Part shown: positions 1 to 28,905 of the stretch, piece by piece
Layout of the letters: each line of letters opens with the position of its first letter
Numbering within the stretch: the stretch's first letter is position 1
From: Cyclonatronum proteinivorum
GTDB lineage: Bacteria > Bacteroidota > Rhodothermia > Balneolales > Cyclonatronaceae
Reading direction: 5' to 3'
DNA: 64,000 nucleotides
NCBI RefSeq assembly: GCF_003353065.1
Contig: NZ_CP027806.1
Location: 2,748,501 to 2,812,500, forward strand
Program-made: the position numbers and the translations under genes
Notes under the pieces: model-generated
The model's database searches: none
The model's input: only the letters and a program-made list of their open reading frames with translations
What the model was told of the DNA's origin: nothing

Positions 1-2337
1 CAATCCCATACTGACAAATTTCTGTCAGTTTTATTGGTGACATTTTTTGTCACCCCAATCTTACTGTTTTGTCAGACTTCAACCATTCATGCCAGCGCAG
101 CTGCGCACGGTATCCATAGTCAGGAAAGCGATCAGCCTTATCAGGCTGTGGTTCGCTGTGCCGAAACCGGGCATGTTCTGGGCAGCGCCCACATTCTGGT
201 TCAGGATGTGCCCGGCATGCACACCGTAAGCCGCGCGGACGGAAGTTTTGAGCTCCGTCTCAGCCTACAAGGTTCTGAACAGGTGCTGCAGATTTCGCAC
301 CTGGGTTTTCACCCGCTCAGCCTTCGATTCACGCATATCAGTGAACTGCCCGCTGAAATTTTATTGACGCCCAAGCGCGTAAACATGAGTCCGGTTTCCG
401 TAGTAGCGCACCACACGGTCGGCAGGCCCAAAAACGGCCTCGATATTACGCAAGCGAGTTTCACACCGATCGACTCCGGCGCTTTTTTGCGCGAAGCCGA
501 CAATGTTTCCGGTGTACGCAGGGGCGGATTCGGTATCGATCCCGTCGTGCGCGGAAACAGCGGCAGCCGGCTCAATATCCGCGTTGATGGCCTTGCTTCA
601 AGCGCTGCAGCCTGCCCGAACCGCATGGATCCCCCCACCTCCCACATTCGGTTGAGCGACATTGAGCGAATCGAAATTCACCACGGTCCGCATGCGCTGC
701 GTTTTGGCCCGTCTTTTGGCGGAACGGTTGATTTCATCCGGCACAAGCCTGAAGTGAGTCCACAGTTTCAGGTTCAGGGGGATGTTCGCCTTGCGCTTGA
801 GAGCAATACCGGCAACCGCGTAACGGATGCGCGCCTGCACCTCGGCAACGCCCGCTACGACCTCATGCTTAGCGGCGGCTTTTCCGCAACAGACGACTAC
901 ACCGGCGGCGACGGCCTGAAAGTGCCGGCCTCATTTGAGAGCAGCGATTTTGGCGCCGAATTGTTTTTCCGGCCTGCAACAGGCCATCAGCTGCAGGCGG
1001 GATTCTCACAGTCCTATGTGCGAAACGCCGATTTCCCGGCCCTGCCGATGGATATGGCCATGGATGACACCTTTAAACTAAAAGGCGGTTACGCATGGAA
1101 TCCACAGGACGTGCCCGGGCTGCGGAGCCTTCGCGCGGATGCTTACTACAGCTATGTTGATCACGAAATGAACAACCACAATCGTGAATCCTTCAACATG
1201 CGTGACGCTGTTGCTCTTGCCGAAACCAAAACATGGGGCGTGCAGGGGGAAGCTATCGGGATGTACCGCAGCCTGCGCTGGAACGCTAACGCCTCCTACA
1301 CCAATCAGCAAATTGATGGCACCCGCTTCGTAGATTTCAAGGCCGGTCCCAATGCCGGTAACAGCATGACCTACAATTTGTGGCAGGATGCCATCATCCA
1401 AAACAGCGGCCTTTATGCGGGCGCGGATTATTTTTTGGATGCCTGGACGATCTCAACGGCCATCCGGCTGGATTACAATACTGCGGAAGCCCGAAATCTT
1501 GCCCCGCGGTTTGCCGGTACGGATACTTCGAGCGAGCACTTCAACCTGAGTCTAAGTGCCGGAATCAGCCGGGAGTTGAGCACCAACACGGGGATCAGCC
1601 TGTACGCAGGACGGGGCGTTCGGTCGCCGGATGTTACCGAGCGCTTCATCAACTTTCTGGCCGTTGGACGCAACGCGTTCGAGTTTGCCGGAAATCCAAA
1701 TCTGAAACCGGAATCGACCCATCAGCTTGATCTCGTTTTCCGTACCCGCACAAACGACGATGCACTTAACCTGCAGCTGAATGGCTTCACCGCGCTCATG
1801 CAAAATTATATAGCCGGGGTACGCAACGAAGAGCTGCAGCCGATGGTGGCAAGCGCACCGGGCGTACTTGAGTTTCAGAACCGGGACGATGTCTTTACGG
1901 CGGGCTTCGAAGCTACTGCCGAATACCGATTGCCTTCTGTGGCTTCTGCACGTCTGAGTGCGTCCTACACCTATGCGGAATTCACGGATGATGGCAGCGC
2001 CGTTGCCGAGATTCCGCCCTTTGAAAGCCGCCTTGTGCTGACCGGACTTTTCAGCGGACGCTTCATACCCGAAGCAAACATCCGCAGGGTACTGACTCAG
2101 AATCGGTTTGATGCCGGTTTCGGTGAAGAAAAAACGGATGGGTTCTGGCTCGCAGATATCAGTGTGCGAACCCGCGTGCTGCAGAATCTCAGCCTGAATG
2201 CAGGCGTGCGCAACCTGTTTGACGAAGCCTATTCCGAACACCTGAACCGCAACATACGTCCGGATATAAACGAAGGCACCATGAAGCTGCCCGAGCCGGG
2301 CCGACGGGTATTCGTTGAAGTCAGCTGGCGGTTTTAA
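1..2337 (+). CDS. TonB-dependent outer-membrane receptor, OprC/NosA-like (probable copper uptake), 5' end open at window edge
   Basis: TonB-dependent outer-membrane receptor. Numbering from the TTG at 34, it has a hydrophobic leader (about 1-20), a carboxypeptidase-regulatory-like domain (about 37-112), a plug domain (about 135-240) and a beta-barrel ending in the usual terminal aromatic (VSWRF). The plug contains C194-P-N-R-M198 and the barrel contains H377-E-M379. This is the CxxxM...HxM pattern known to bind copper in Pseudomonas OprC, and the spacing of 183 residues is close to OprC's 180. The frame is open to base 1, and the extra upstream residues (including a lysine before the hydrophobic stretch) would make a better signal peptide, so the true start is probably outside the window. 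Copper as substrate is inferred from the motif. A terminator follows the gene. Confidence 0.85.
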   Translation, partial: QSHTDKFLSVLLVTFFVTPILLFCQTSTIHASAAAHGIHSQESDQPYQAVVRCAETGHVLGSAHILVQDVPGMHTVSRADGSFELRLSLQGSEQVLQISHLGFHPLSLRFTHISELPAEILLTPKRVNMSPVSVVAHHTVGRPKNGLDITQASFTPIDSGAFLREADNVSGVRRGGFGIDPVVRGNSGSRLNIRVDGLASSAAACPNRMDPPTSHIRLSDIERIEIHHGPHALRFGPSFGGTVDFIRHKPEVSPQFQVQGDVRLALESNTGNRVTDARLHLGNARYDLMLSGGFSATDDYTGGDGLKVPASFESSDFGAELFFRPATGHQLQAGFSQSYVRNADFPALPMDMAMDDTFKLKGGYAWNPQDVPGLRSLRADAYYSYVDHEMNNHNRESFNMRDAVALAETKTWGVQGEAIGMYRSLRWNANASYTNQQIDGTRFVDFKAGPNAGNSMTYNLWQDAIIQNSGLYAGADYFLDAWTISTAIRLDYNTAEARNLAPRFAGTDTSSEHFNLSLSAGISRELSTNTGISLYAGRGVRSPDVTERFINFLAVGRNAFEFAGNPNLKPESTHQLDLVFRTRTNDDALNLQLNGFTALMQNYIAGVRNEELQPMVASAPGVLEFQNRDDVFTAGFEATAEYRLPSVASARLSASYTYAEFTDDGSAVAEIPPFESRLVLTGLFSGRFIPEANIRRVLTQNRFDAGFGEEKTDGFWLADISVRTRVLQNLSLNAGVRNLFDEAYSEHLNRNIRPDINEGTMKLPEPGRRVFVEVSWRF
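10..54. promoter_or_regulatory. Two adjacent TGACA/TGTCA inverted repeats at the start of the copper-type TonB receptor gene
   Basis: Two perfect 7-bp inverted repeats lie side by side: ACTGACA-N6-TGTCAGT at 10-29 and GGTGACA-N5-TGTCACC at 36-54. A further TGTCA half-site is at 70-74. Shared TGACA/TGTCA arms on about one helical-turn pattern look like tandem binding sites for a dimeric regulator. They overlap the possible TTG (34) and GTG (37) starts of the receptor gene, so either the promoter lies here or the dyads are inside the signal-peptide coding region. No regulator can be named from this alone. Confidence 0.4.
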
Positions 2338-4878: not shown

Positions 4879-5190
4879 TCACACAAATTCTTCAACAGCG
4901 ATCTGATAGGCATGCAGGGGATTATCGCGGCGGCCTTCCCAGCTTTTGTTGTAGCTTTTGATTTCATTCAGCACGGTTGCTACGGTTTCCTCTGTCTGAA
5001 AGGAAAAGAACAGCGTAGAGTAAATCCCGTGATCGCCCTGTGAAAACCAGGTACGCACATCGGGCTGATGTTTTTCAGTCCGGAATCCATGCATGGGCGT
5101 TTCGCTGTAGACAGCAACTTTGTTTCGGGCCATCATTTGGCGGACTTCATCCGCAAATTCGGCTACACTCAGAATAATCAGCAGTTTCAT
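4879..5190 (-). CDS. PII-like transporter-associated protein (PG0541-like)
   Basis: A 103-residue soluble protein with no signal peptide. It starts MKLLIILS and continues with a compact alpha/beta pattern typical of PII-like (ferredoxin-fold) trimers; it resembles the PG0541 transporter-associated group. It is the last gene behind the TolC-adaptor-RND set on the same strand, 125 bp after the RND stop. Small PII-like proteins are known next to RND and other transporters in Bacteroidota, where they may sense a cytoplasmic ligand, but the ligand is unknown. The efflux link here is inferred from position. Confidence 0.6.
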   Translation of the reverse strand: MKLLIILSVAEFADEVRQMMARNKVAVYSETPMHGFRTEKHQPDVRTWFSQGDHGIYSTLFFSFQTEETVATVLNEIKSYNKSWEGRRDNPLHAYQIAVEEFV

Positions 5191-5315
5191 GGCAACAGTA
5201 TGTTTTGTTGAGGGAAAACCCGGGACAGTCAGCCTTGCTGCGCTGTGCTGTCACGGGTTTTGTGTTTTCAGGATGGAGATGGAATCTGCCTGAGCGTATC
5301 AAACAGCTTCAGGCT

Positions 5316-8300
5316 TTATTTTTTGACCATGTAGTAGATCAGTGGCACCGTGATGAGCGTGAGCGCGGTAGAAGCAAGTGCACCGCCCATCAGGGAGATG
5401 GCGAGACCCTGGAAAATCGGATCGAAAAGGATGACGATGGCGCCAATCACAACGGTTCCGGCCGTAAGCAGGATCGGCATGGTGCGCACAGCACCGGCTT
5501 CAATGACCGCATCGTGCAGGTTGTTGCCGTCTTTCAGGCTGATTTGGATGAAGTCGATAAGCAGCACCGAGTTTCTGACCATGATACCCGCAAGGGCAAT
5601 GAGGCCGATCATGGAGGTTGCGGTGAAGAAGGCTCCGGTAAACCAGTGTCCCAGCAGGATACCGATCAGGGACAGCGGGATGGCGATCATCATAATGATG
5701 GGAACGCCGAAATCCTGGAACCAGCCCACAATCAGAATGTAAATGATGATGAGCACGACCGCGAATGCAATGCCGAGATCGCGGAAAACTTCGAGGGTTA
5801 TCTGCCACTCGCCGTCCCATTTTACGGTTACGTTTTCGCTGTTGAACGGCTGACCCGCAAATTGCTGCGTAACCGGGCTTCCTGCGGCCTGAAGAGCGTC
5901 AATTTCGGCTCCGGCATCGAGAATGGCATAAACCGGACTTTCAATTTCTCCGGCAACTTCTGCCACTACGTACACTACCCGCCGCTGATTTTTGCGGTGA
6001 ATGCTGCGCCCAAGCTCCTGCTCGTGTACTTCCACAAGATCTGCAACGGGCAGCATGGCCCCGGTTTGTGATTGGACGTGCAGACCAGCAATGCTGCCAA
6101 GTCCCGAACGGGAAGCATCGTCGAGGCGCAGCACCATCGGGATGGGATCGGCATGCCGCGGCTGATACAGGTAAGAAACCGGGTGCTCACCAAGTACCAG
6201 ACCCAGGCTTTCGGTTATTTGCATGGGGGCAATCCCGCTTAGCTGTGCTTTGTCGCGCATGACCGAAAAGCGGTATTCGGTTTGGGCCGCTTCCACCATC
6301 CAGTCCACATCCACAATACCGGGGGTGCGCTCAAAAATATCCATGATATCCCGTGCTGTAGCCCGCTGTGTTTCGAGATCCGGTCCGTACACTTCAGCCA
6401 CAAGGGTTGAAAGCACCGGCGGCCCCGGAGGCACTTCCACTACTTTCACATTGGCACCGTGTCGTAAGCCGACTTCCTGCACCATCGGACGAATCCGCTT
6501 GGCAATATCATGGCTTTGATCAGAGCGCTCGCTTTTATCAACGAGATTAACCTGAATATCGGCTACGTTCGGCATCTGCCGCATGTCGTAGCTGCGCACC
6601 AGGCCATTGAAGTTAATGGGCGCATTTGTTCCGGCATACACCTGATAGTCGTACACTTCCGGTACCTCAAGCAGGCGCAGGGCGACTTCCTGCGCTACGG
6701 CATGCGTACGCTCCAGCGTAGTGCCTTCCGGCATATCGATGATGAGCTGAATTTCATTCTTATTGTCGAAAGGCAGCATTTTCACTTCCACCCAGCGTAC
6801 ATAAAAAAGCATCAGCGTCGCAAACAAAATAGCCGTCGTTCCCAAAAGAAAACTCCACCGAAGCCAGGCTTTGCTCAGCAGCGGACGCATGGTCGCTGCA
6901 TATACTTTGAAAACCACCGTTTCTTCCAGCTTATACGGCTTTTTAGCTTTACTGCCCGCTTTGGGTTCAGGCTCCTTAAGCAGGCGATAACCCAACCAGG
7001 GGGTCACAATCAGGGATACGATCAGGGAGAAAATCATGGCAACCGTTGCCCCGATAGCGATGGGACTCATGTAGGGTCCCATAAGACCTGAAACGAAGGC
7101 CATCGGAATAACCGCAGCAATTACGGTGAAGGTCGCCAGAATGGTCGGATTTCCTACTTCGTTAATCGCGTAGATTGCCGCCTGCCGGAACGGCAGTTTT
7201 TTAATCTTAAAGTGACGGTGCATGTTCTCCGCCACAATAATTGAGTTATCAACCACAATACCGGTCACAAACACCAGCGCAAACAGGGTGATGCGGTTCA
7301 GGGTGTAGTCGTACATGTAGTAGAAAAACAGGGTGAGGGCGAAGGTGATGGGCACCGAAATAAACACCACAAGTCCGCCGCGCCAGCCCATGGCCAGAAA
7401 TACAACAAACGTAACTGCAAGCACCGCGACAATCAGGTGAATGAGCAGGGTGTTGACCTTTTCAGTAGCTGTTACACCGTAGTTGCGGGTTACAATAACT
7501 TCGACATCATCGGTCAACAGACTGCCGCTGAGCTGACGGTTCATTTCCAGAATCTGATTGGCGATGGTGTTGGCATCCGCGCCCTGCCGCTTGGCAATGG
7601 AAATCGTGACGGCCGGGTAGCTTATGCCCGCCTGCGATTCGTAGCGCTCCGCTGCGGCAGGTCCATGACTGTAGCTCGCATAATTTACTGCCTGACCCGG
7701 TCCATCGGTTACGCGGGCGACATCCCGCAGAAAGACCGGCTCGCCCTGATGCACGCCCAGTACGAGTCCGGCCACATCTTCTGCCGTCTCCAGGAAACTG
7801 CCTGTCTGTACCAGAAACTCCGTATCATTCCGGCTGAAGCTGCCGCTGCGAAACTCACTGTTGGCCGCCTGAAGCGTTTGGGCAATGCGCAGCGGATCAA
7901 CGCTGAATGCCGCCATCCGGGCAGGATCGAGGGTAATTTCCACCGCGCGGGTGCGCCCGCCGTGAAGGCGTATCTGCGACACATCGGGAATGCTTGTGAG
8001 CTCATTGGTGAGCTGTTGCGCGAGCTGACGCAGCAGGTAGTCATCCTTACTGCCGTCGCGGCTGTAGAGGGTGAGGGTTACAATCGGCACATCGTTGATG
8101 GAGCGGGATTTCACCAGCGGCATGGTTACACGCTCAGGCTTGGTATCCATGAAGCGCATCATTTCATTGTAGAGCCGCACCAGACTGCGTTCCACATCTT
8201 CCCCAACATAAAAGCGGGCGGAAACAACTGCCATTTCAGGCATGGATGTGGAGTAAATGTACTCGATACCGGAAATGTTCGAGAGCACTTTTTCAAGGGG

Positions 8301-8510
8301 GATGGCAATGGTGTTCTCCACTTCTTCGGGCGAGGCGCCCGGGTATCCGACAAAAATATCGGCCATGGGCACATCAATCTGCGGTTCTTCCTCACTTGGG
8401 GTAAGCCAAACGCCGTAGGCGCCAATGGCAAGGAAGGCAATCATCAGCAGCAGCGTAAGCTTGGAGTCGATGAAGGCCTGCGCTATTTTTCCTGCTAAAC
8501 CAGTATTCAT
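5316..8510 (-). CDS. RND efflux transporter, inner-membrane pump
   Basis: A 1064-residue RND permease of AcrB/CusA type, full length for the family. A first membrane helix (about 17-37) is followed by a periplasmic porter domain that opens with the usual GYPGASPEEVE signature (55-65). Helices then cluster at about 355-540, with a second porter half and a second cluster at about 880-1062. The proton-relay helix TM4 reads G-I-V-V-D421-N422, so the second aspartate of AcrB's D407/D408 pair is Asn. The TM10 lysine (K940 in AcrB) is replaced by R979 in VRN. These changes point away from canonical AcrB. Substrate, drug or metal, cannot be told from sequence. It forms an operon with the adaptor and TolC-type genes. 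Confidence 0.92.
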   Translation of the reverse strand: MNTGLAGKIAQAFIDSKLTLLLMIAFLAIGAYGVWLTPSEEEPQIDVPMADIFVGYPGASPEEVENTIAIPLEKVLSNISGIEYIYSTSMPEMAVVSARFYVGEDVERSLVRLYNEMMRFMDTKPERVTMPLVKSRSINDVPIVTLTLYSRDGSKDDYLLRQLAQQLTNELTSIPDVSQIRLHGGRTRAVEITLDPARMAAFSVDPLRIAQTLQAANSEFRSGSFSRNDTEFLVQTGSFLETAEDVAGLVLGVHQGEPVFLRDVARVTDGPGQAVNYASYSHGPAAAERYESQAGISYPAVTISIAKRQGADANTIANQILEMNRQLSGSLLTDDVEVIVTRNYGVTATEKVNTLLIHLIVAVLAVTFVVFLAMGWRGGLVVFISVPITFALTLFFYYMYDYTLNRITLFALVFVTGIVVDNSIIVAENMHRHFKIKKLPFRQAAIYAINEVGNPTILATFTVIAAVIPMAFVSGLMGPYMSPIAIGATVAMIFSLIVSLIVTPWLGYRLLKEPEPKAGSKAKKPYKLEETVVFKVYAATMRPLLSKAWLRWSFLLGTTAILFATLMLFYVRWVEVKMLPFDNKNEIQLIIDMPEGTTLERTHAVAQEVALRLLEVPEVYDYQVYAGTNAPINFNGLVRSYDMRQMPNVADIQVNLVDKSERSDQSHDIAKRIRPMVQEVGLRHGANVKVVEVPPGPPVLSTLVAEVYGPDLETQRATARDIMDIFERTPGIVDVDWMVEAAQTEYRFSVMRDKAQLSGIAPMQITESLGLVLGEHPVSYLYQPRHADPIPMVLRLDDASRSGLGSIAGLHVQSQTGAMLPVADLVEVHEQELGRSIHRKNQRRVVYVVAEVAGEIESPVYAILDAGAEIDALQAAGSPVTQQFAGQPFNSENVTVKWDGEWQITLEVFRDLGIAFAVVLIIIYILIVGWFQDFGVPIIMMIAIPLSLIGILLGHWFTGAFFTATSMIGLIALAGIMVRNSVLLIDFIQISLKDGNNLHDAVIEAGAVRTMPILLTAGTVVIGAIVILFDPIFQGLAISLMGGALASTALTLITVPLIYYMVKK

Positions 8511-8548
8511 AAATTTTGGGATTATTCGTAATTGGATTCAGTTCTGGT

Positions 8549-9634
8549 TTACAGGCTCACACGCTGACCTTGTCTCACAGGCGTATCAAGCACGGAGATG
8601 TAGCGTTCTCCGGATCGCAGACCCGATACGATTTCAACCCGTCCTTCATGCGCACGCCCCGTTCGCACCCAGCGCAATACCGCCTGACCCGATTCGGTTA
8701 CGGCGTAAAGTCCGGTGAGCTGTCCGCGGTGCACAAGCGCAGACTGCGGCACAAAAATAGCCGGCTCGTCGGAAATGCTCAGATGAAGCGTTGCAAACAT
8801 ACCGGGCCGGATGCCGCTTTCATGAGCGTCAGGCAGGACAGCTTCCGCTGAAAACTGCCTTGACATCTGATCGCCGCTACTGTTGACACGGGTAAGGGGA
8901 ACGGAATCCATTTCAATGCCGGCAGCCGGCACGCTGTACCGGATGGTTTCACCCGCAGTTAACTCACGGATGAGATTTTCCGGCAGATGGGCCCGGATTT
9001 TCAGCAAACCGGGACTTGATAGGGTAACAACGGGCTGTCCCGGTGCGGCGAGGTCTCCGGCACGCATAAATTTGCGGGAAACAACGCCCTCAAAGGGCGC
9101 ACGGATGACTGTATAGGCCAGCATTTCCTGTACTTCCTGTTCGGAAGCTTCCAGCATTTCAAGCTGTGCTTTGGCCATGTTGTAGCCGGCGGTCGCTTCA
9201 TCAAGTTCGTGCCGGGTTGCGCTTTCCTGCTCGTAGAGATTGGTGATTCGGCGAAAAGCGGCAGCGGCAAGCTCATATCCGGCGGCAGCCTGCATTTTGG
9301 CCGCCTGAATCTGCATGAGCTGCGCCCTGATCTGATTGTCGTTGATACGTGCAATCACCTGTCCGCGGCTAACCCGGTCGCCTTCATTAACATCAAGCAT
9401 GGTAATCGTGCCCATTACGATTGTGCTGAGGCGGGCTTCCTGCGCACTGATTGCAGAGGCAGGAAAGCTGTGGGTTACGATGGAAACTTCGGTACCGGCG
9501 AGCTCGGTCTGTACGGCAAGCGGCGTTTCCTGCGGGGTGGTTTCGGGTGATGCGCCACAGGCCTGAAGAATCAGCCCGGCCATTATCAGGGCTGAAATCA
9601 AAAGAAAAGACTTATTGGTATGGATAAAATGCAT
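8549..9634 (-). CDS. Periplasmic adaptor (membrane fusion) lipoprotein of RND efflux system
   Basis: HlyD/AcrA-type membrane fusion protein linking the RND pump to the outer-membrane channel. The chosen ATG gives a short basic leader ending in the lipobox L-Q-A-C, so the mature protein is a lipoprotein. An in-frame TTG 13 codons upstream (9673) is possible but would place a charged extension before the signal peptide. The mature part has a lipoyl-like half (V-S-R-G-Q-V-I-A-R), a coiled-coil hairpin rich in Ala, Glu and Gln, a second lipoyl half (F-E-G-V-V-S-R-K) and a beta-barrel/membrane-proximal end. It lies 38 bp upstream of the pump gene and just after the TolC-type gene. Confidence 0.9.
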   Translation of the reverse strand: MHFIHTNKSFLLISALIMAGLILQACGASPETTPQETPLAVQTELAGTEVSIVTHSFPASAISAQEARLSTIVMGTITMLDVNEGDRVSRGQVIARINDNQIRAQLMQIQAAKMQAAAGYELAAAAFRRITNLYEQESATRHELDEATAGYNMAKAQLEMLEASEQEVQEMLAYTVIRAPFEGVVSRKFMRAGDLAAPGQPVVTLSSPGLLKIRAHLPENLIRELTAGETIRYSVPAAGIEMDSVPLTRVNSSGDQMSRQFSAEAVLPDAHESGIRPGMFATLHLSISDEPAIFVPQSALVHRGQLTGLYAVTESGQAVLRWVRTGRAHEGRVEIVSGLRSGERYISVLDTPVRQGQRVSL

Positions 9635-9676
9635 GGGTTGAAGAATTTTGACGGTTTGTTTTTTTGATTTCAAAGC

Positions 9677-11005
9677 TTAGTTGCCGAGCAACAGCTCAAG
9701 GGCTGCGGCGCTCATATTGTACTGAAAGAAGGCTTCAAGCTGCTGCAGGCGGCTTTCGGACAGCCGGGTTTCGGCGAGGAGTAAATCGGTTGTGCGTTCC
9801 AGGCCTTCGGCGAAGCGATTGCCGCGGATGCGCGCGTTTTCTGTTGCACCGGCTACCGCTTCTTCAGAAAGTGAAATCCTGTTCAGGGCATGTTCAAGCG
9901 AGCGTGCGGCCTGACGCAAATCGGTGTGCTGCTGCTGCTGAAACTGATCGAGGCCTGTTCTCGCCATGCGGGCCCTTGCCGAAGCTTCTGCCCTGCGTCC
10001 GGCCTGCTGAAAACCGGAAAACACGTTCCAGCTCAGGCTTGCCCCGATCATGTAGGCCGAAGCACCAAAGCCAAAAGGGTCGTTGTCATTGAGTTCAAAG
10101 CTTCCAAACACATTCAGACGGGGCACAAAACTGTAAGCTGCGGATTTAACCATGTAGCCGGCGGCTTCGGCCTGAAGCGCTGCAGCGCGTACAAACGCAT
10201 TATCAGGCGGGGTTTCAACAGCTGCGCTATCCGGGAGGAATCCCGCCTGCTGTTGCAGCGAATCCGTAGGCAGAATGCGGGTCATAGCGTCCATCCCAAG
10301 TAACAGCGACAGTTTTTCCTGTGCAGTCTCCGCTTCATTAGCGGACTTCGCCAGCCGGCTTTCCAGCTCAAGACGGTGCACCCGTGCGGCGAGGAGGTCT
10401 TCGCGGCTGAGCATGCCTTCATTATAAAAGTTCTGTGCCTGCTTTTCGTAGGCTGCGGCCGTTTCAGCTGCTTCTGCAATTACCTGCTGTATCTGACCGT
10501 AAAGCACCAGCTTGTAATAGGCCTGCTTCACCTGAAAAGTTATCATGGCTGCGGTGCCATCAAGCATTTCACCGGCTGCTTCCGTCTGTGAGCGGGAAGC
10601 CCGGCGCGCGAACATCATATCGGCGTTGAACACAGGCTGTTGCACCGTGATACGGGCAGCATAGTTCTCGTACGAGCCGGGATTGTTCAGCCGCGCAGGA
10701 TCAAAGTCCGGAGCCGTTACCCGCTCTTGCTTTAACCTGAAGCCGAATACGTTCAGAGGATCATCGGTGCTAACCGCCTGATACTCCAGGGAAACAGAAG
10801 GCAGAAAGACAGCGCTCGTCTGACGATACTGCGCCTGTGCCACCTGCTGTTCATGGCGTTTCATAGCAATATCCCGGTTGTTTTCTGCTGCCAGCTCAAG
10901 GGCCTGTTCCAGCGACAATTCAAGCGTCTGTTGTGCGCTGAGCTGTAAGGGCGCGCCAAACAGCAACAGTAAGATCGGCACGAACAGTAACCCGGATACC
11001 CGCAT
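9677..11005 (-). CDS. TolC-family outer-membrane efflux channel
   Basis: Outer-membrane factor of the tripartite efflux system. The start chosen (11005) gives a clean signal peptide ending near L-S-A-Q-Q. An in-frame ATG at 11053 would add 16 residues with no signal-peptide character and would sit almost on the 11060-11075 dyad. The mature protein has two long alternating coiled-coil/beta repeats typical of OEP (PF02321) proteins, about 440 residues in all. It is the first gene of the channel-adaptor-pump-PII operon, 89 bp (or 40 bp with the longer start) after the ArsR-rhodanese gene, so it is likely under that regulator. Confidence 0.9.
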   Translation of the reverse strand: MRVSGLLFVPILLLLFGAPLQLSAQQTLELSLEQALELAAENNRDIAMKRHEQQVAQAQYRQTSAVFLPSVSLEYQAVSTDDPLNVFGFRLKQERVTAPDFDPARLNNPGSYENYAARITVQQPVFNADMMFARRASRSQTEAAGEMLDGTAAMITFQVKQAYYKLVLYGQIQQVIAEAAETAAAYEKQAQNFYNEGMLSREDLLAARVHRLELESRLAKSANEAETAQEKLSLLLGMDAMTRILPTDSLQQQAGFLPDSAAVETPPDNAFVRAAALQAEAAGYMVKSAAYSFVPRLNVFGSFELNDNDPFGFGASAYMIGASLSWNVFSGFQQAGRRAEASARARMARTGLDQFQQQQHTDLRQAARSLEHALNRISLSEEAVAGATENARIRGNRFAEGLERTTDLLLAETRLSESRLQQLEAFFQYNMSAAALELLLGN

Positions 11006-11059
11006 TGTTTTGCGTGGGTTTAGCTGACATGATGTTTGATACGACATTTGCATAATTGT

Positions 11060-11075
11060 ATAACTATGTAGTTAT
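11060..11075. promoter_or_regulatory. Inverted repeat between the regulator and efflux genes, candidate second operator
   Basis: ATAACT-ATGT-AGTTAT is a perfect 6-bp dyad in the short gap between the ArsR-rhodanese stop and the TolC-type gene. Its AT-rich arms and 16-bp size suit a winged-helix dimer. Its sequence differs from the 11781-11818 operator, so binding by the same regulator is uncertain. Confidence 0.4.
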
Positions 11076-11093
11076 TAAATGGTTAAAAAAAAA

Positions 11094-11753
11094 TCAGCGC
11101 TGCAATTGGCTGTTTTCCCACTCGGGGAGTCCTTTTTCCATGCGACGGGCGCTGTACCCGTTAGCGCGGAGTATTGCTACGGCTTCATCTGCCATGAGGC
11201 AAAACTCGCCCCTGCAATACGTCACAATCTCACAGTCCTGCGGAAGCTCAGCTATCCGTTTCGGCAGCTCGCGCACCGGAATGGAAACTGCACCCGGCAG
11301 CGCAGCAATCTCAAATTCTTCAGCCGGACGCACATCAAGGAGCACGACCTTACCACTGTTGATCATCCCGCTGATTTCTTCGAGACGAACCTGATCCGCG
11401 CTGTGCTTTTGCTCCCGGTAGGATTCCAAAAGCCGGCCAATTTCGGCATTCCTGCTCACGGCTGCTGCACGCAGCTGACACAGCAACTTATGCGTATCGG
11501 TACCAGAAAGACTGTAGAAAACCTGCTTGCCATCCCGACGGGCACTGACCAAACGGGCCTGACGCAGCACCTGTAAATGTGCCGAAGTATTGGCGACGCT
11601 TAATCCCGTGTTTTCCGAGATGTATTCTACAGACAGCGCCCCCTGTGCGAGAAGATCCAAAATTTCCAGACGCAGCGGATTGCCTAGCGCCTTGGTTAAA
11701 GCGGCTGATTCAGAATAGAGCTGTTTTTTGAGAACGGATGTTTTCATAGGCAT
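11094..11753 (-). CDS. ArsR-family repressor fused to a rhodanese domain
   Basis: A 219-residue two-domain regulator. Residues about 10-95 are an ArsR/SmtB winged helix (A-L-G-N-P-L-R-L-E-I-L with the N-T-S-A-H-L-Q-V-L recognition helix). Residues about 120-215 are a rhodanese domain with active-site loop C-R-G-E-F-C. ArsR-rhodanese fusions are known to respond to sulfur species or thiol-reactive compounds, with the rhodanese cysteine as likely sensor or sulfur carrier. That mechanism is inference here. A strong inverted repeat 28 bp upstream suggests self-repression, and the efflux operon follows on the same strand. An additional cysteine (L-C-Q-L) lies between the domains. Confidence 0.9.
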   Translation of the reverse strand: MPMKTSVLKKQLYSESAALTKALGNPLRLEILDLLAQGALSVEYISENTGLSVANTSAHLQVLRQARLVSARRDGKQVFYSLSGTDTHKLLCQLRAAAVSRNAEIGRLLESYREQKHSADQVRLEEISGMINSGKVVLLDVRPAEEFEIAALPGAVSIPVRELPKRIAELPQDCEIVTYCRGEFCLMADEAVAILRANGYSARRMEKGLPEWENSQLQR

Positions 11754-21822: not shown

Positions 21823-23463
21823 ATGAGTAACGGTTACGCAAATTCACCCGGCAACTACGCCGCGCCGCGCGGGCAGGATGGCGCGGCTGCCTATCCCGAG
21901 GGCGGGGTGCTTCCACCACAGGCCATCGAAATTGAACAGGCTGTGCTGGGCGGCATGCTTATCGAGCACGAGGCTGCAACCCTGGCCATAGAGCTGCTGC
22001 AGCCATCAGATTTCTACCGCAAAGGACACCGGCACGTTTTTGAGATCATGCAGGAGCTTTATGAAAAGAGCAATCCGCTCGATCTCATCACTGTGGAAAG
22101 CGAGCTGCGCGACCGCAAGCTGCTGGAAGAAATCGGAGGACCGGCCTATCTCGGCGAACTCACCCGGGCCGTCAGCTCGGCGGCAAATATTGAGTATCAC
22201 TGTCAGATTCTGGCTGAAAAAGCCATCAAACGCACCATCATCAGCACCTTCACCGATGTGGTGAAGGAATCCTACGATCCGGGCACTGACCCCTACGACA
22301 TGCTGGATAAGGCTGAGCGCTCGATTTACGAGCTCGCCAACGCGAAGCGGGGGATTGAGTCAAACAACATGAGCGATATTCTCAAGAAAACCCTGCAGCA
22401 CCTTGAGGATATCCGCGGGCAAAAAGGCGGGATTACGGGCATTCCGTCCGGCACCGACGTGGACAAATGGACGGCGGGATGGCAGAAGGGGGATATGGTA
22501 ATTATCGCGGCGCGCCCCTCTATGGGAAAAACTGCTTTTGTACTTACTATTGCCCGAAATGCCGCGCTGTTTCCGGTGGAAGAGAAGCGGGCGGCAGTTG
22601 CGATCTTCAGTCTTGAAATGTCTTCACAGCAACTTGTGCAGCGCCTGCTTACCATGGAAGGCCGCGTGAATGCGCAGGATGCCCGAACCGGCCGGCTCAC
22701 GGACAATGATTTCAAACTGCTGATTGATGCGGCGAGCCGCTTGTTCAAAGCCAAAATTTTCATTGACGACACCCCTGCCCTGAGCGTGCTTGAGCTGCGT
22801 TCCAAATGCCGCCGCCTGAAAAGTGAGCACGACATCAATCTCATCATCATTGACTACCTGCAGCTGATGCGCGGCAACACCAATGACCGCAACTCCAACC
22901 GTGAACAGGAAATTGCGACCATTTCCCGCGGTCTCAAAAGTCTTGCGAAAGAGCTTGATGTGCCGGTTATCGCGCTGTCACAGCTTAGCCGCGCGGTTGA
23001 AACACGGGGCGGCAACAAGCGGCCCATGCTGAGCGACCTTAGGGAATCGGGCAGTATTGAACAGGATGCGGATGTAGTTTGCTTTCTTTATCGTCCGGGC
23101 TACTACAACATCACAACTGATGATGAAGGCAACAGCACCGAAGGCGTAGCCGAGGTTATTATCGGGAAACAGCGTAACGGGCCGGTTGGCACCGTGAAAC
23201 TGCAGTTTGTGGAGCAATACGCACGCTTCGAGAACTTTGCGTCCTACCAAAACAATGCACCCGGCATGGACAGCGCAGAAAGTGAGGGCGACGGGAATCA
23301 GGGCGGTGGCAACAGCAGTGCAGCGTTACCCCCCTTCGATGATGATGATGAAACTGCAGGCGCGGTCAGCCCATCGGAACCCGGAACTTCCCGGCGCCCC
23401 CCAATGTATCAGCCCGGGCCGGCCGACTTTTCGGATGATTCGGGAGAAAATCCCCCTTTTTAG
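21823..23463 (+). CDS. dnaB: Replicative DNA helicase
   Basis: The hexameric helicase of the replication fork. The N-terminal domain (about 30-135) begins after a 30-residue Gly/Ala-rich leader with P-P-Q-A-I-E-I-E-Q-A-V-L-G. The RecA-like C-terminal domain has Walker A A-R-P-S-M-G-K236-T and Walker B L-I-I-I-D-Y-L-Q-L-M. Arginine-finger region E-S-G-S-I-E-Q-D-A-D is present. A low-complexity acidic/Pro tail of about 70 residues follows. There is no intein. It is probably co-transcribed with the glycosylase gene upstream. Confidence 0.95.
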   Translation: MSNGYANSPGNYAAPRGQDGAAAYPEGGVLPPQAIEIEQAVLGGMLIEHEAATLAIELLQPSDFYRKGHRHVFEIMQELYEKSNPLDLITVESELRDRKLLEEIGGPAYLGELTRAVSSAANIEYHCQILAEKAIKRTIISTFTDVVKESYDPGTDPYDMLDKAERSIYELANAKRGIESNNMSDILKKTLQHLEDIRGQKGGITGIPSGTDVDKWTAGWQKGDMVIIAARPSMGKTAFVLTIARNAALFPVEEKRAAVAIFSLEMSSQQLVQRLLTMEGRVNAQDARTGRLTDNDFKLLIDAASRLFKAKIFIDDTPALSVLELRSKCRRLKSEHDINLIIIDYLQLMRGNTNDRNSNREQEIATISRGLKSLAKELDVPVIALSQLSRAVETRGGNKRPMLSDLRESGSIEQDADVVCFLYRPGYYNITTDDEGNSTEGVAEVIIGKQRNGPVGTVKLQFVEQYARFENFASYQNNAPGMDSAESEGDGNQGGGNSSAALPPFDDDDETAGAVSPSEPGTSRRPPMYQPGPADFSDDSGENPPF

Positions 23464-23489: not shown

Positions 23490-24299
23490 ATGATGTCAAG
23501 CCACCGACATAAAAAACACCTTCTTAACCTTAGATATGTAACCCTGTTTTTACTTTTTATTTTTGTTTGGGCAGGATGCGGAAGTGAAGAAAAAGACCTT
23601 GAACAGCATACTGAAATTCAATCGGGTGAACGCTATGCATTTAGCCAATGGCAGCCAAACGTAACTTATGAAGGTGCCTTACGCAACATCATGCGGGAGA
23701 ATAATCTTAGTGCACACCTTCACTTTGAAGATTTCCCGCTGCGCAGTACAATCTATGCGCTTGGCGCATTTGAAGATCTCAAAGGGGAAATTCTGATTTT
23801 ACGCGGAGAATCATACAGCACACGTGCAGTAGCCGATGAAGTGCGTTTTATAGATCTTGAAAATGAGTCTGCCGCTTTTATGGTATGGGCCGAAGTTGAA
23901 AAATGGCAGGGGTTTGAAGTTCCGGATTCTGTTCTAAGCTTTACTGAACTTGAAAATTTTACCGCTTTGCAGGCCAATAACTTTGGAATTGACCAGACAA
24001 AACCTTTCCCATTCGGCCTGACGGGAACTGTCGCAGAGCTTTCCTGGCACGTGATTGACTGGCCCGAAGATGATACCGTGCATACGCATGAAAAACATAT
24101 GGTCACGGGTCCGCATGGCGTACTGACTGGTATTCCTGCGGAAATCCTTGGCTTTTATTCTGACAGCCATCATGGCATTTTCACACATCACAGTTCAAAT
24201 ATGCACCTACACTTTGTCTCACAGCCACCGCTCTATTCCGGACACGTTGACGACCTGACCCTAAGCCCGGGCTCAACATTATGGCTGCCTGCAGAATGA
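23490..24299 (+). CDS. Acetolactate decarboxylase-like lipoprotein
   Basis: A 269-residue exported protein. Its leader ends in W-A-G-C30, a lipobox, so it is probably anchored on a membrane outside the cytoplasm. The mature part follows alpha-acetolactate decarboxylase (AlsD/BudA, PF03306): an N-terminal Y-A-L-G-A-F-E-D-L-K-G-E-I-L-I-L-R-G segment like the family's G-T-F-x-x-L-D-G-E-L-I-I-L-D-G, and the metal triad H239-x-H241-x10-H252 in M-H-L-H-F-V-S-Q-P-P-L-Y-S-G-H. Spacing 0, 2, 13 matches the zinc ligands of Brevibacillus AlsD (194, 196, 207). The family makes acetoin in the cytosol or outside the cell. A lipoprotein form suggests another substrate or an extracellular step. Base composition is more AT-rich than neighbours. 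Confidence 0.75.
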   Translation: MMSSHRHKKHLLNLRYVTLFLLFIFVWAGCGSEEKDLEQHTEIQSGERYAFSQWQPNVTYEGALRNIMRENNLSAHLHFEDFPLRSTIYALGAFEDLKGEILILRGESYSTRAVADEVRFIDLENESAAFMVWAEVEKWQGFEVPDSVLSFTELENFTALQANNFGIDQTKPFPFGLTGTVAELSWHVIDWPEDDTVHTHEKHMVTGPHGVLTGIPAEILGFYSDSHHGIFTHHSSNMHLHFVSQPPLYSGHVDDLTLSPGSTLWLPAE

Positions 24300-24405: not shown

Positions 24406-25152
24406 ATGTTCCGTTTTTTGTTTAACCGCCGCGGGCGCTGGATGGAAGAAGGCCTTACCAAAGATCAGGCGGACATACTGCGGAGCCTGCCGGAACTGGC
24501 GGGACTAAAAGAGCCCGCTTTTCAGAAAATCTGCGGTCTAAGCCGGGTGCTGATGGAAGAAAAAACCTTTGAAGGCTGCAGCGGTCTCACCCTTACCGAA
24601 CGGATGAAACTGATCGTTTCCGGCTATGCGGCCCTGATGCTCGCGGGCGATGTTTCCGACTACTTTCCCGGGCTTCAATCTATTCTCATCTATCCCAAAC
24701 CCTATATTGCGCCGGTCGAAGACTACGACGAAGCGGGTATTGTGACGAGCGGACACGAGCGCAGGTTCGGTGAATCGTGGGAGTTTGGAAGCCTGGTTCT
24801 TGCCTGGAATGAAATCGAGCGGCATATCAGAACGGCTTCACGTGACAATCTTGTGATTCACGAATTTGCCCATCAGATCGATGATGAGCTGGGAATTTCG
24901 CTGGAGGTCGAGCGTGTGCTAAACGGCAACGCAGACACCCCCTGGGCGGCAATCATAGCGCGCAAATTTGAGACCTTCAGCCGGAACCCGGGACGGCTGC
25001 CCTCGGTCGACACTTACGGCGCCGAAGACCTGCACGAATTTTTCGCCGTGCTTTCTGAACTCTTTTTCACCTACCCCCAACACCTTCGCTCCGATTCAAA
25101 GGCCCTTTTTGATGTGATGTGTACCTGCTACAATCAAAAGCCCATTCCCTGA
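24406..25152 (+). CDS. MtfA-like zinc metallopeptidase
   Basis: A 248-residue protein of the MtfA (Mlc titration factor A) family. The zinc site is H152-E-F-A-H156 with E211 in H-E-F-F-A-V as likely third ligand; a long helical N-terminus and Y-P-K-P-Y segment also fit. E. coli MtfA binds the glucose repressor Mlc and cleaves aminopeptidase substrates. No Mlc is near here, so the role is open. It has no signal peptide and lies 106 bp after the ALDC-like gene. Confidence 0.82.
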   Translation: MFRFLFNRRGRWMEEGLTKDQADILRSLPELAGLKEPAFQKICGLSRVLMEEKTFEGCSGLTLTERMKLIVSGYAALMLAGDVSDYFPGLQSILIYPKPYIAPVEDYDEAGIVTSGHERRFGESWEFGSLVLAWNEIERHIRTASRDNLVIHEFAHQIDDELGISLEVERVLNGNADTPWAAIIARKFETFSRNPGRLPSVDTYGAEDLHEFFAVLSELFFTYPQHLRSDSKALFDVMCTCYNQKPIP

Positions 25153-26143: not shown

Positions 26144-26227
26144 AGTGTGCTGAGGGCTTGTAGGTACAGATAATGGAGGGTTGGTTGTAAAAACGAATGC
26201 TCGTAGCGGCGAATAGGGGGATTCTAA

Positions 26228-26735
26228 GAATAATTACGCCAACGCAACCACAGCCCTGAAAGAGCGAAATACCACAGCCCGGGGTGCCACCCCCGGGATT
26301 GCGGCCCCACACAAATGGAGCCCTGAAAGGGCGGCATATCATCGGGAGTTGCGTCCCGAATCGTGCGCAACCATTGCGGATACGGCTGATAATGTATTTC
26401 GGGAGCCGCACCCGCCTCGCTCCTTCTTTTCATTACTATTCGGGTTGCACTGAATAACAAAGCCTTCGGTCAGCATTCCCACACCCCGTCCCGCCACCAT
26501 CGGGGCGTTGAATGAGATTTGAGGCTACTCAGGCCTAATCAACCCTAACAAATTCCTACCGGGGCCACCCCTCTCGAGAGGGGAATTTTATATCCCAAAT
26601 AATATCAACATTATAACTCATAAACGACAAACTGACATACTGTGCGGTGACATACTGAAAATGCCTTCTCGAGAGGGGAATTTGTAAGTCCCGTGATAAT
26701 CATAGCTTCGGATACCTTAATTTCTTTCTTCTTTT
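26228..26735. repeat. Array unit 1 (5'-truncated)
   Basis: Begins within the CCCTGAAAG module and runs through the CCTTCGGTCAG block, CCCCTCTCGAGAGGGG palindrome (26568-26583) and a GACATACTG pair. It lacks the ACGCCACGGAACC front part of units 2 and 4. Confidence 0.7.
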
Positions 26736-26739
26736 TTGG

Positions 26740-27290
26740 CTAAGAGTCCTGCAACGCCACGGAACCAAACTCCCCGCTGCGAGAGGGGTGCCCGGGTTGT
26801 AGGAGCGATCCTATGTGTCCGCCTGCAAACGGGCGGGGTGTGACCGCCCGGAAGCCGGAATTCGGGCACCTTACGCCACGATAGAAAACATCACGCATTT
26901 GTAATGAGCTCAAAAAAAGAATTACCAAAGGCTAACCCAGCCCTGAAAGGGCGGCATACCACAGCCCGGGGTGCCAACCCCGGGATTGCGGCCCCTCACA
27001 AATAGAGCCCTGTAAGGGCGGCATATCTTCGGGGGTGGGTTTCGATTCGTGCGCAACCATTGCGGATACGGCTGGTAATATATTTCCGGAGTCGCACCAG
27101 CCTCGCTCCTTCCTTTTATAGCGACTCAGCCTGCACTGAAATGCATGGCCTTCGGTCAGCATTTCCACACCCCGTCCCGCCACCACCGGGGCACTGAAAG
27201 AGTGTAAAAATAATTCCGGCACCACAAACCCTAACAAATTCCTACCGGGGCCACCCCTCTCGAGATGGGAGTTTTATATCCCAAATAATA
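26740..27290. repeat. Array unit 2
   Basis: Contains the front part (ACGCCACGGAACCAAACTCCC, in two pieces), the CCCTGAAAGGGCGG hairpin, the GCCCGGGGTGCC unit and the CCTTCGGTCAG block in the same order as unit 4, offset by about 1377 bp. A few bases per ten differ, so copies have aged. Confidence 0.75.
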
Positions 27291-27317
27291 TCAAGATCAA
27301 GATTGGGGCTAAAATGA

Positions 27318-27351
27318 AACCCTCCATGGGTTTAGAAACCCTTGGAGGGTT
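27318..27351. repeat. Inverted repeat in the divergent unit
   Basis: Arms AACCCTCCATGGGTTT and AAACCCTTGGAGGGTT pair at 15 of 16 positions around 2 bases. It resembles short palindromic repeats scattered in many bacterial genomes and could form a strong hairpin. Confidence 0.6.
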
Positions 27352-27701
27352 GATTTGGCTCAAATATACCATAACCCCGTCATCCCGGAAAGGCCCACAC
27401 TGAAGCCGAAAAATGCCCCAATGCGGCCGGCCTTATCCGGGATCTGCCAGCTTCGGCCTGAGACAATGCCGGTAGTTGGGCCTCCAATGGCGACCGGGGT
27501 CTTTGTGGTTCCGGCTTCCCAGGTCAGCTATTGCATTGCGGTAGTTCAGGCTTGGAAGATCCCGGATAATGCTGCACGCCTTTTCTTAATGGTAAAAAAA
27601 CGCCGAATGGCAGCATTTCCGGGATGACGGGTTCTTTGTGGGATGGTATTTGAGAGAACAAATTCAGTTTCTTGGATTTGATTTTGATATCCGAAATTGT
27701 A

Positions 27702-27723
27702 GAGACGCGATTCATCGCGTCTC
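27702..27723. repeat. Perfect short palindrome GAGACGCGAT-TC-ATCGCGTCTC
   Basis: Ten paired bases around a 2-nt loop, flanked by unrelated sequence. Similar GAGACGCGAT...ATCGCGTCTC repeats are common as dispersed intergenic elements in other bacterial phyla. It belongs to a different repeat family from the 688-bp units. Confidence 0.65.
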
Positions 27724-27839
27724 GGATTCACCACGTTTTGAATTACCGCGCTTCCACGCACGGGTGGTCGGGCAAATGATCAGTTTCCAGCCCGATGGGT
27801 ACCCCACCAACTGCCGCTGTGCCCGTAATTTGGCTTTTT

Positions 27840-28065
27840 GCCTTCGACCGCCCTTCGGTCTCACCCCGTCCCGCCACTATCGGGGCGTTGAATGAGATTG
27901 GAGGATACTCAGGCCTAATCAACCCTAACAAATTCCTACTGGGGTCACCCCTCTCGAGAGGGGAATTTTATATCCCAAATAATATCAATATTATAACCCC
28001 AAAATGACATACTGACATACTGTGAGGTGACATACTGAAAAGGCTTTCTCGAGATGGGAATTGAT
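27840..28065. repeat. Array unit 3 end (interior replaced)
   Basis: Only the end of the unit is recognisable: CCCCGTCCCGCCACTATCGG, the TTGAATGAGATT-GGAGG piece shared with unit 1, the landmark and the 16-bp palindrome. The stretch 27294-27830 before it is unrelated to the other units, although the period is kept. Confidence 0.65.
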
Positions 28066-28116
28066 AAGTGCTGTGATAATACCTTTCGTGACCCTATTTA
28101 GATAGTTTTTTTGACT

Positions 28117-28750
28117 TGAAAGTCCTTAAACGCCACGGAACCAAACTCCCCTCTGCGAGAGGGGTGCCCGGGTTGTAGGGGCGGACCTATGTGTCCACCC
28201 GCAAACGGGCGGGGTGTGAGCGCACCGGAAGCCAGAATTCGGGCACCTAAGGCCACGAAAAAAAACATCACACACTTGTAATGAGCTCAAAAAAAAAATT
28301 ACCACAACGTAACCACAGCCCTGAAAGGGCGACATACCACAGCCCGAGGTGCTAACCCCGGGATTGCGGCCCCACACAAATGGAGCCCTGAAAGGGCGGC
28401 ATATCATCGGGAGTTGCGTCCCGAATCGTGCGCAACCATTGCGGATACGGCTGATAATGTATTTCGGGAGCCGCACCCGCCTCGCTCCTTCCTTTCATTA
28501 CTATTCGGGTTGCACTGAACTACATAGCCTTCGGTCAGCATTTCCACACCCCGTCCCGCCACCATCGGGGCACTGAAAGAGTGTAAAAATAATTCCGGCG
28601 CCACAGACCCTAACAAACTCCTACCGGGGCCACCCCTCTCGAGAGGGGAGTTTTATATCCCAAGTAATAACAACATTATAGCCTAAAAATGACACACTGA
28701 CATACTGTGCGGCGACATACTGAAAATGCCCTCTCAAGAGGGGAATTGAG
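28117..28750. repeat. Array unit 4
   Basis: The longest copy, parallel to unit 2 with all modules in order, ending with the CCCCTCTCGAGAGGGG palindrome and GACATACTG pair near 28740. It stops about 40 bp before the tRNA terminator. Confidence 0.75.
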
Positions 28751-28792
28751 CGTATATGAAGCCCGCCGAGCTGATTCCTCTCCAAAAACAAA

Positions 28793-28826: not shown

Positions 28827-28832
28827 GTTTAG

Positions 28833-28905
<73 letters not shown>

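Follow-up and report, generated by a model that had tools for sequence, protein, structure and literature searches.

The window analysed here, a stretch of 64,000 nucleotides from the Cyclonatronum proteinivorum genome, carries a gene whose product combines the three-histidine metal motif of acetolactate decarboxylase (ALDC) with the signal of an exported lipoprotein. The locus raises the question whether this protein is an ALDC-type enzyme with an acetolactate-like substrate outside the cytoplasm, a possibility raised by the original prediction, or a protein of the same fold with another function. The evidence presented below indicates that it is probably a new variant within the ALDC fold family and not an ALDC.

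A probable lipoprotein with a predicted ALDC fold

The open reading frame has no internal stop, and the reverse strand at this place is interrupted by stops. Scanning for promoters and terminators yielded signals at or below chance. The lipobox A-G-C30 noticed in the original prediction is present, and a cysteine occupies the lipobox column in 76 of the 80 aligned family members (drawn from the best 80 of 387 relatives). The tryptophan at position -3 of W-A-G-C30 is unusual; the closest homologue reads L-S-G-C. From the sequence we infer export through Sec and lipid anchoring at Cys30.

The protein matched the Pfam family PF03306 (AAL_decarboxy) with 34 bits (cut-off 25, E 2.3e-8), which is beyond chance. 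The ALDC equivalog model TIGR01252 (NCBIfam) gave 17.5 bits, far below its cut-off of 180.65; of three relatives, two scored 29.6 and 56.6 bits and the third had no match. An AlphaFold2 model based on 64 aligned family members (structure alignment A5, 64 of the 80 sequences) reached a mean pLDDT of 86.7 and a pTM of 0.77. Comparison of this model with solved structures revealed nine ALDC or ALDC-like entries as the best matches (Z 21.3-22.8 over about 200 residues). Since the top structural matches are all acetolactate decarboxylases, the predicted fold is that of ALDC, and the likeness to AlsD on which the original prediction depended was borne out at this level (Z 21-23).

Table 1. Positions in the window of the family gene, its functional elements and its two flanking genes.
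Feature	Position	Strand	Basis or remark
dnaB, replicative helicase	21823..23463	+	Pfam; 26 bp upstream of family gene; order kept in L003/L053
ALDC-fold lipoprotein gene	23490..24299	+	269 aa; ORF call, Pfam, fold prediction
Signal peptide, residues 1-29, lipobox W-A-G ahead of Cys30	23490..23576	+	sequence; helix 16-26 in model
Cys30, predicted lipid-anchored +1 residue	23577..23579	+	family conservation, closest homologue
Glu100, equivalent of ALDC Glu65	23787..23789	+	alignment to canonical ALDCs and 4BT2; 79/80 members
His187 at ALDC Arg145 position	24048..24050	+	His in 80/80 family members, 18/18 in alignment A1
H198-x-H200-x-K202-H203, family-specific motif	24081..24098	+	80, 79, 80 and 80 of 80; canonical ALDCs without motif
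H227 and T232-H233-H234, family-specific histidines	24168..24191	+	80/80 each
H239-L-H241, triad ligands one and two (4BT2 H194, H196)	24204..24212	+	alignments; 80/80
H252, triad ligand three (4BT2 H207); D254	24243..24251	+	80/80 each
M90 (MtfA-like) metallopeptidase	24406..25152	+	Pfam; downstream; order kept in L003

The altered active site and the metabolism of the host

Residues were assigned by aligning the window protein (P0001) with canonical ALDCs and the family profile with the ALDC structure 4BT2, whose numbering was taken via the alignment of a canonical relative to the 4BT2 chain. Conservation was counted over 80 aligned members including P0001, from the best 80 of 387 relatives. 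The AlsD-spaced triad H239-x-H241-x10-H252, the starting point of the original prediction, corresponds to H194, H196 and H207 of 4BT2 with identical spacing, and the 64-member family profile aligned the same columns. The active-site roles of Arg145, Thr58 and Glu253 are those known from work on 4BT2. Of the active-site acids, which were to be compared with AlsD, Glu65 is kept as Glu100 whereas the C-terminal Glu253 is absent: the window protein ends earlier, and the canonical ALDCs at L013 and L024 also lack this tail. Arg145, the catalytic arginine of 4BT2, is conserved in every one of the canonical ALDCs from Bacteroidota that were compared (14 of 14) and is replaced by histidine in all 80 family members (drawn from the best 80 of 387). 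Thr58 corresponds to Ala93 of the window protein in the alignment to canonical ALDCs and 4BT2. Moreover, seven added histidines (187, 198, 200, 203, 227, 233 and 234) are invariant or near-invariant in the family, and K202, W186, W191 and D254 are likewise invariant in the 80 aligned members from the best 80 of 387. The match of the triad is real but misleading, because Arg145 and Thr58 are exchanged, the glutamate tail is gone and seven new histidines have appeared.

The host genome, a single contig that is 99.38% complete, contains one PF03306 gene. The earlier remark that no acetolactate synthase gene lies nearby was true and can be extended, as none was found in the whole host genome with TIGR00118 (best match 28.5 bits), nor was ilvC (best match 22 bits versus 226). 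Read from the sequences, the 28.5-bit match is a MenD-like gene beside an isochorismate-synthase-like gene. Without the acetolactate synthase large subunit and ilvC, the host is probably unable to form branched-chain amino acids along the standard pathway. Among the 19 genomes that carry the family, TIGR00118 was over its cut-off in 13; of the remaining six, five had 35 bits at best and one (G285) had a sub-cut-off match of 349 bits.

A genuine ALDC supplied with acetolactate from outside would agree with the fold and the triad, and the ALDC of Bacillus brevis is an exoenzyme. However, the exchange of Arg145 for histidine in 80/80 members, the alanine in place of Thr58, the missing glutamate tail, the TIGR01252 score (17.5 versus 180.65 bits) and a host without acetolactate synthase make this highly improbable, and we rejected a true secreted ALDC on these grounds. 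The export, which had been taken as the odd feature, was also rejected as the novelty: at least 7 of 18 canonical ALDCs from Bacteroidota carry a lipobox-like start (judged by eye), and exported relatives of ALDC as such are already known. The window protein very probably has a function other than that of ALDC, so that the hunch of a new function is supported by the changes in the active site, whereas the proposed AlsD-type enzyme is not. Because members of the family exceed the cut-off of the Pfam model for alpha-acetolactate decarboxylase, databases may well label them so, and with such labels metabolic models may wrongly assign acetoin production to these bacteria.

Distribution of the family and genes beside its members

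Matches to PF03306 were found in 41 of 394 genomes of the phylum, with scores split into a group above 190 bits and a group below 77 bits; one low match (65 bits) corresponds to the terminal part of a canonical gene broken across contigs. The family's own profile matched 20 of the 394 genomes, 19 with scores of at least 122 bits and the remaining one, a canonical gene, with 26 bits. The tree (106 rows) took in 76 of the 80 family rows (selected by length) together with 15 of 23 canonical loci and 9 of 10 rows of the sister subfamily B2. Canonical ALDCs formed one side of a branch with an SH-aLRT support of 100, the B1 family (80 rows including P0001) one side of another with 98, and P0001 grouped with relatives from Balneolales with 99. 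Similar lipoproteins thus occur in other genomes, as the original prediction suggested they should be sought; the named relatives belong to Bacteroidota, Balneolota, Calditrichota and Marinimicrobia (Fidelibacterota), apart from a single Poribacteria bin. The copy in this bin barely differs from that of a Flavobacteriales bin, and an error in binning may account for it. Judged by sequence, this is a distinct family of predicted ALDC fold, mostly lipoproteins, apart from the canonical ALDCs.

Some members deviate in architecture. Locus L042 (4987-7016, minus strand) contains a tandem pair of divergent members, one of them (a B3 member) fused to an FmdE domain, and a B2 member at L045 (5175-6734, minus strand) carries a fused SASA carbohydrate acetylesterase domain. 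In the Balneolota genome G285, a stop interrupts the family gene at L038 (5496-6314, minus strand), which is possibly a pseudogene.

The gene neighbourhood was analysed for 80 relatives fetched with flanks (the best 80 of 387); L103 had no called family gene, leaving 79 to be counted. Five gene clusters were considered: an RND pump, an outer-membrane factor, a CusB-type adaptor or DUF3347 protein, a P1B-ATPase, and a small protein without Pfam match, which we take to be of the HYC type. With at least three of these inside the fetched DNA (no more than about 12 kb) counted as a Cus/Cop copper-export operon, the family gene lies in such an operon in 21 of the 79 relatives. Pfam searches on examples of the clusters returned OEP, ACR_tran (RND), the CusB-type adaptor domains HlyD_D23, HMBD and DUF3347, and the P1B-ATPase domains HMA and HMBD. 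In NCBIfam the examples scored 785 bits for CusA/CzcA (cut-off 701) and 592 bits for a copper-translocating ATPase (cut-off 397). The ATPase motifs CPC and MSFSS are present in 15 of 18 cluster members, and two of the other three are fragments. In the one pump that was aligned (offset of 7 counted by hand), methionine occupies the positions of M573, M623 and M672, which the residue list in PMC11213822 gives as copper methionines of CusA.

As a control, 20 of the 23 canonical ALDC loci from this phylum, taken with comparable flanks, were searched for the same clusters; a match was found at 1 of these 20 (one weak adaptor match) versus 25 of 80 family loci, a comparison that leans somewhat towards the family because the clusters were defined on family loci. 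Two more Cus-type operons with the gene were found in the phylum sample (L037 and L041), and in the B2 subfamily a copper ATPase follows the gene at L044. A multicopper oxidase adjoins the gene at L071 and L073, with a C-terminal piece at L077; the piece at L106 looks like a secretion tail only and was not counted. At L039 a multicopper-oxidase-like gene lies about 3 kb from the family gene, in a row with FGE-like and SCO1 genes. The 21 Cus loci are not independent, because two changes of the Cus label suffice over 91 rows of the tree, with the label concentrated in Flavobacteriaceae. Relatives outside Flavobacteriaceae have mostly mixed neighbours, the largest neighbour family comprising at most 8 of 111 proteins (the scan covered 111 of 112, one protein of 1624 aa being left out).

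A link between the family and copper was not found among the open-licence papers listed, judged on titles and the starts of abstracts. The main text of PMC11213822, a copper survey of Bizionia argentinensis, contains 0 words beginning with "decarboxylase". Within the open-licence literature searched, the rebuilt active site and the association with copper operons appear to be unreported.

No copper genes were found beside the window copy; about 2.4 Mb away, the host encodes a copper ATPase adjacent to a CusA-type pump. A role tied to the flanking dnaB or M90 peptidase genes was rejected, as among the relatives whose neighbours were listed none but the closest (L003/L053) shows this arrangement. 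On the minus strand, the window contains an efflux operon (4885-11753) with an ArsR-rhodanese regulator, a TolC-like gene, a lipoprotein adaptor, an RND pump and a small conserved protein. The RND pump as a Cus pump was rejected as well, since it scored 244 bits against the CusA/CzcA cut-off of 701 and is nearer to multidrug models. A TonB-dependent receptor is encoded at 34-2337 (plus strand), and its best NCBIfam match is a copper receptor model (218 bits, below the cut-off of 472). Further downstream, at 26226-28765, up to four copies of a repeat unit recur with a period of 685-694 bases, matching the reference copies at 62-94%, and lie just ahead of a tRNA-Met gene (28832-28905).

The neighbours in Balneolota suggest sulfur as much as copper. 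In two Balneolota loci (L038 and L039) the family gene closely follows an RND pump that is 76-78% identical to the window pump (5316-8510); DsrE adjoins the gene at L038, ArsR-rhodanese and FCSD/VKOR-like genes occur at L050, flavocytochrome-c-like oxidoreductases are among the Balneolota neighbours, and rhodanese and MBL-rhodanese genes lie upstream of the gene at L085. These neighbours are consistent with an envelope protein of redox or sulfur stress, connected with the Balneolota RND efflux operon under its ArsR-rhodanese regulator. However, such loci are few, and about 12 kb separates the family gene from the RND operon of the window, which is on the opposite strand, so that we regard this explanation as improbable.

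Proposed function and comparison with known systems

The explanation that we prefer, at about even chances, is that an ALDC-fold lipoprotein has been rebuilt as a periplasmic copper site and has lost the ALDC reaction. The protein would be exported through Sec and anchored at Cys30, as sequence and family conservation suggest, and would fold like an ALDC, keeping the three-histidine metal site and Glu100 according to alignment and prediction. The exchange of Arg145 for His187, the loss of the glutamate tail and the seven added histidines would create a histidine-rich pocket, provided that all of them face it. Gene context suggests that this pocket may bind periplasmic copper, or copper at the outer membrane, and, where the genes lie together, may serve in capture and hand-off or in redox chemistry with CusCBA-type efflux and copper ATPases. 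Because no copper genes flank the window copy, copper is argued here from the relatives; in favour of a shared chemistry, the window protein has all invariant histidines of the family, which are identical in copper-linked and other members. For a copper role of the window protein itself, the odds are about even. More tentatively, and with less confidence, the family may possess an all-histidine, possibly two-metal copper site and represent a novel type of cuproprotein in the periplasm, which might act as a copper oxidase or in copper hand-off, across Bacteroidota, Balneolota and their neighbours.

The main competitor is a zinc enzyme, such as a hydrolase, that acts on a new substrate outside the cytoplasm, with copper genes adjacent only through shared envelope stress responses. 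The retained triad and Glu100 would suit such an enzyme, and the invariant Lys202, Trp186, Trp191 and Asp254 represent a tighter constraint than a metal sponge requires. PTD012, a zinc protein whose fold appears related (Z 12.9) and for which hydrolase activity has been reported, and the fusions to the carbohydrate acetylesterase domain (L045, sister subfamily) and to the FmdE domain (L042, B3) point in the same direction. A zinc enzyme would, however, leave the loss of the arginine, the added invariant histidines and the repeated copper operons unexplained, and we consider it unlikely. If the copper reading is true, the family adds a component to copper export in Bacteroidota and shows that a decarboxylase fold can be converted to hold copper.

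Among known systems, ALDC (AlsD/BudA; 4BT2-4BT7, 5XNE, 1XV2) shares the two-domain fold, the His-x-His-x10-His triad and the Glu65 equivalent with the window family, and lipoprotein or secreted forms exist there too. It differs in the residues that the family has exchanged (His for Arg145, Ala for Thr58), in the Glu253 tail and in the seven added histidines, as well as in context, since the window host has no acetolactate synthase and copper operons occur in relatives. The human protein PTD012 (C11orf54, 1XCR; a zinc protein by its PDB title) appears to have a related fold, with an rmsd of 3.9 over 205 residues, but only 10% identity over the aligned part. PPC/DUF296 proteins (AF0104, 2H6L) match the fold over its C-terminal half, at a Z of about 8; they are single-domain proteins, to which only half of the window protein aligns. 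Finally, the periplasmic Cus/Cop copper proteins (CusF, DUF3347, cupredoxins and multicopper oxidases) are encoded by the kind of genes among which those of the family relatives lie, but their folds are unlike that of ALDC, and we know of no Cus/Cop periplasmic copper protein with an ALDC fold.
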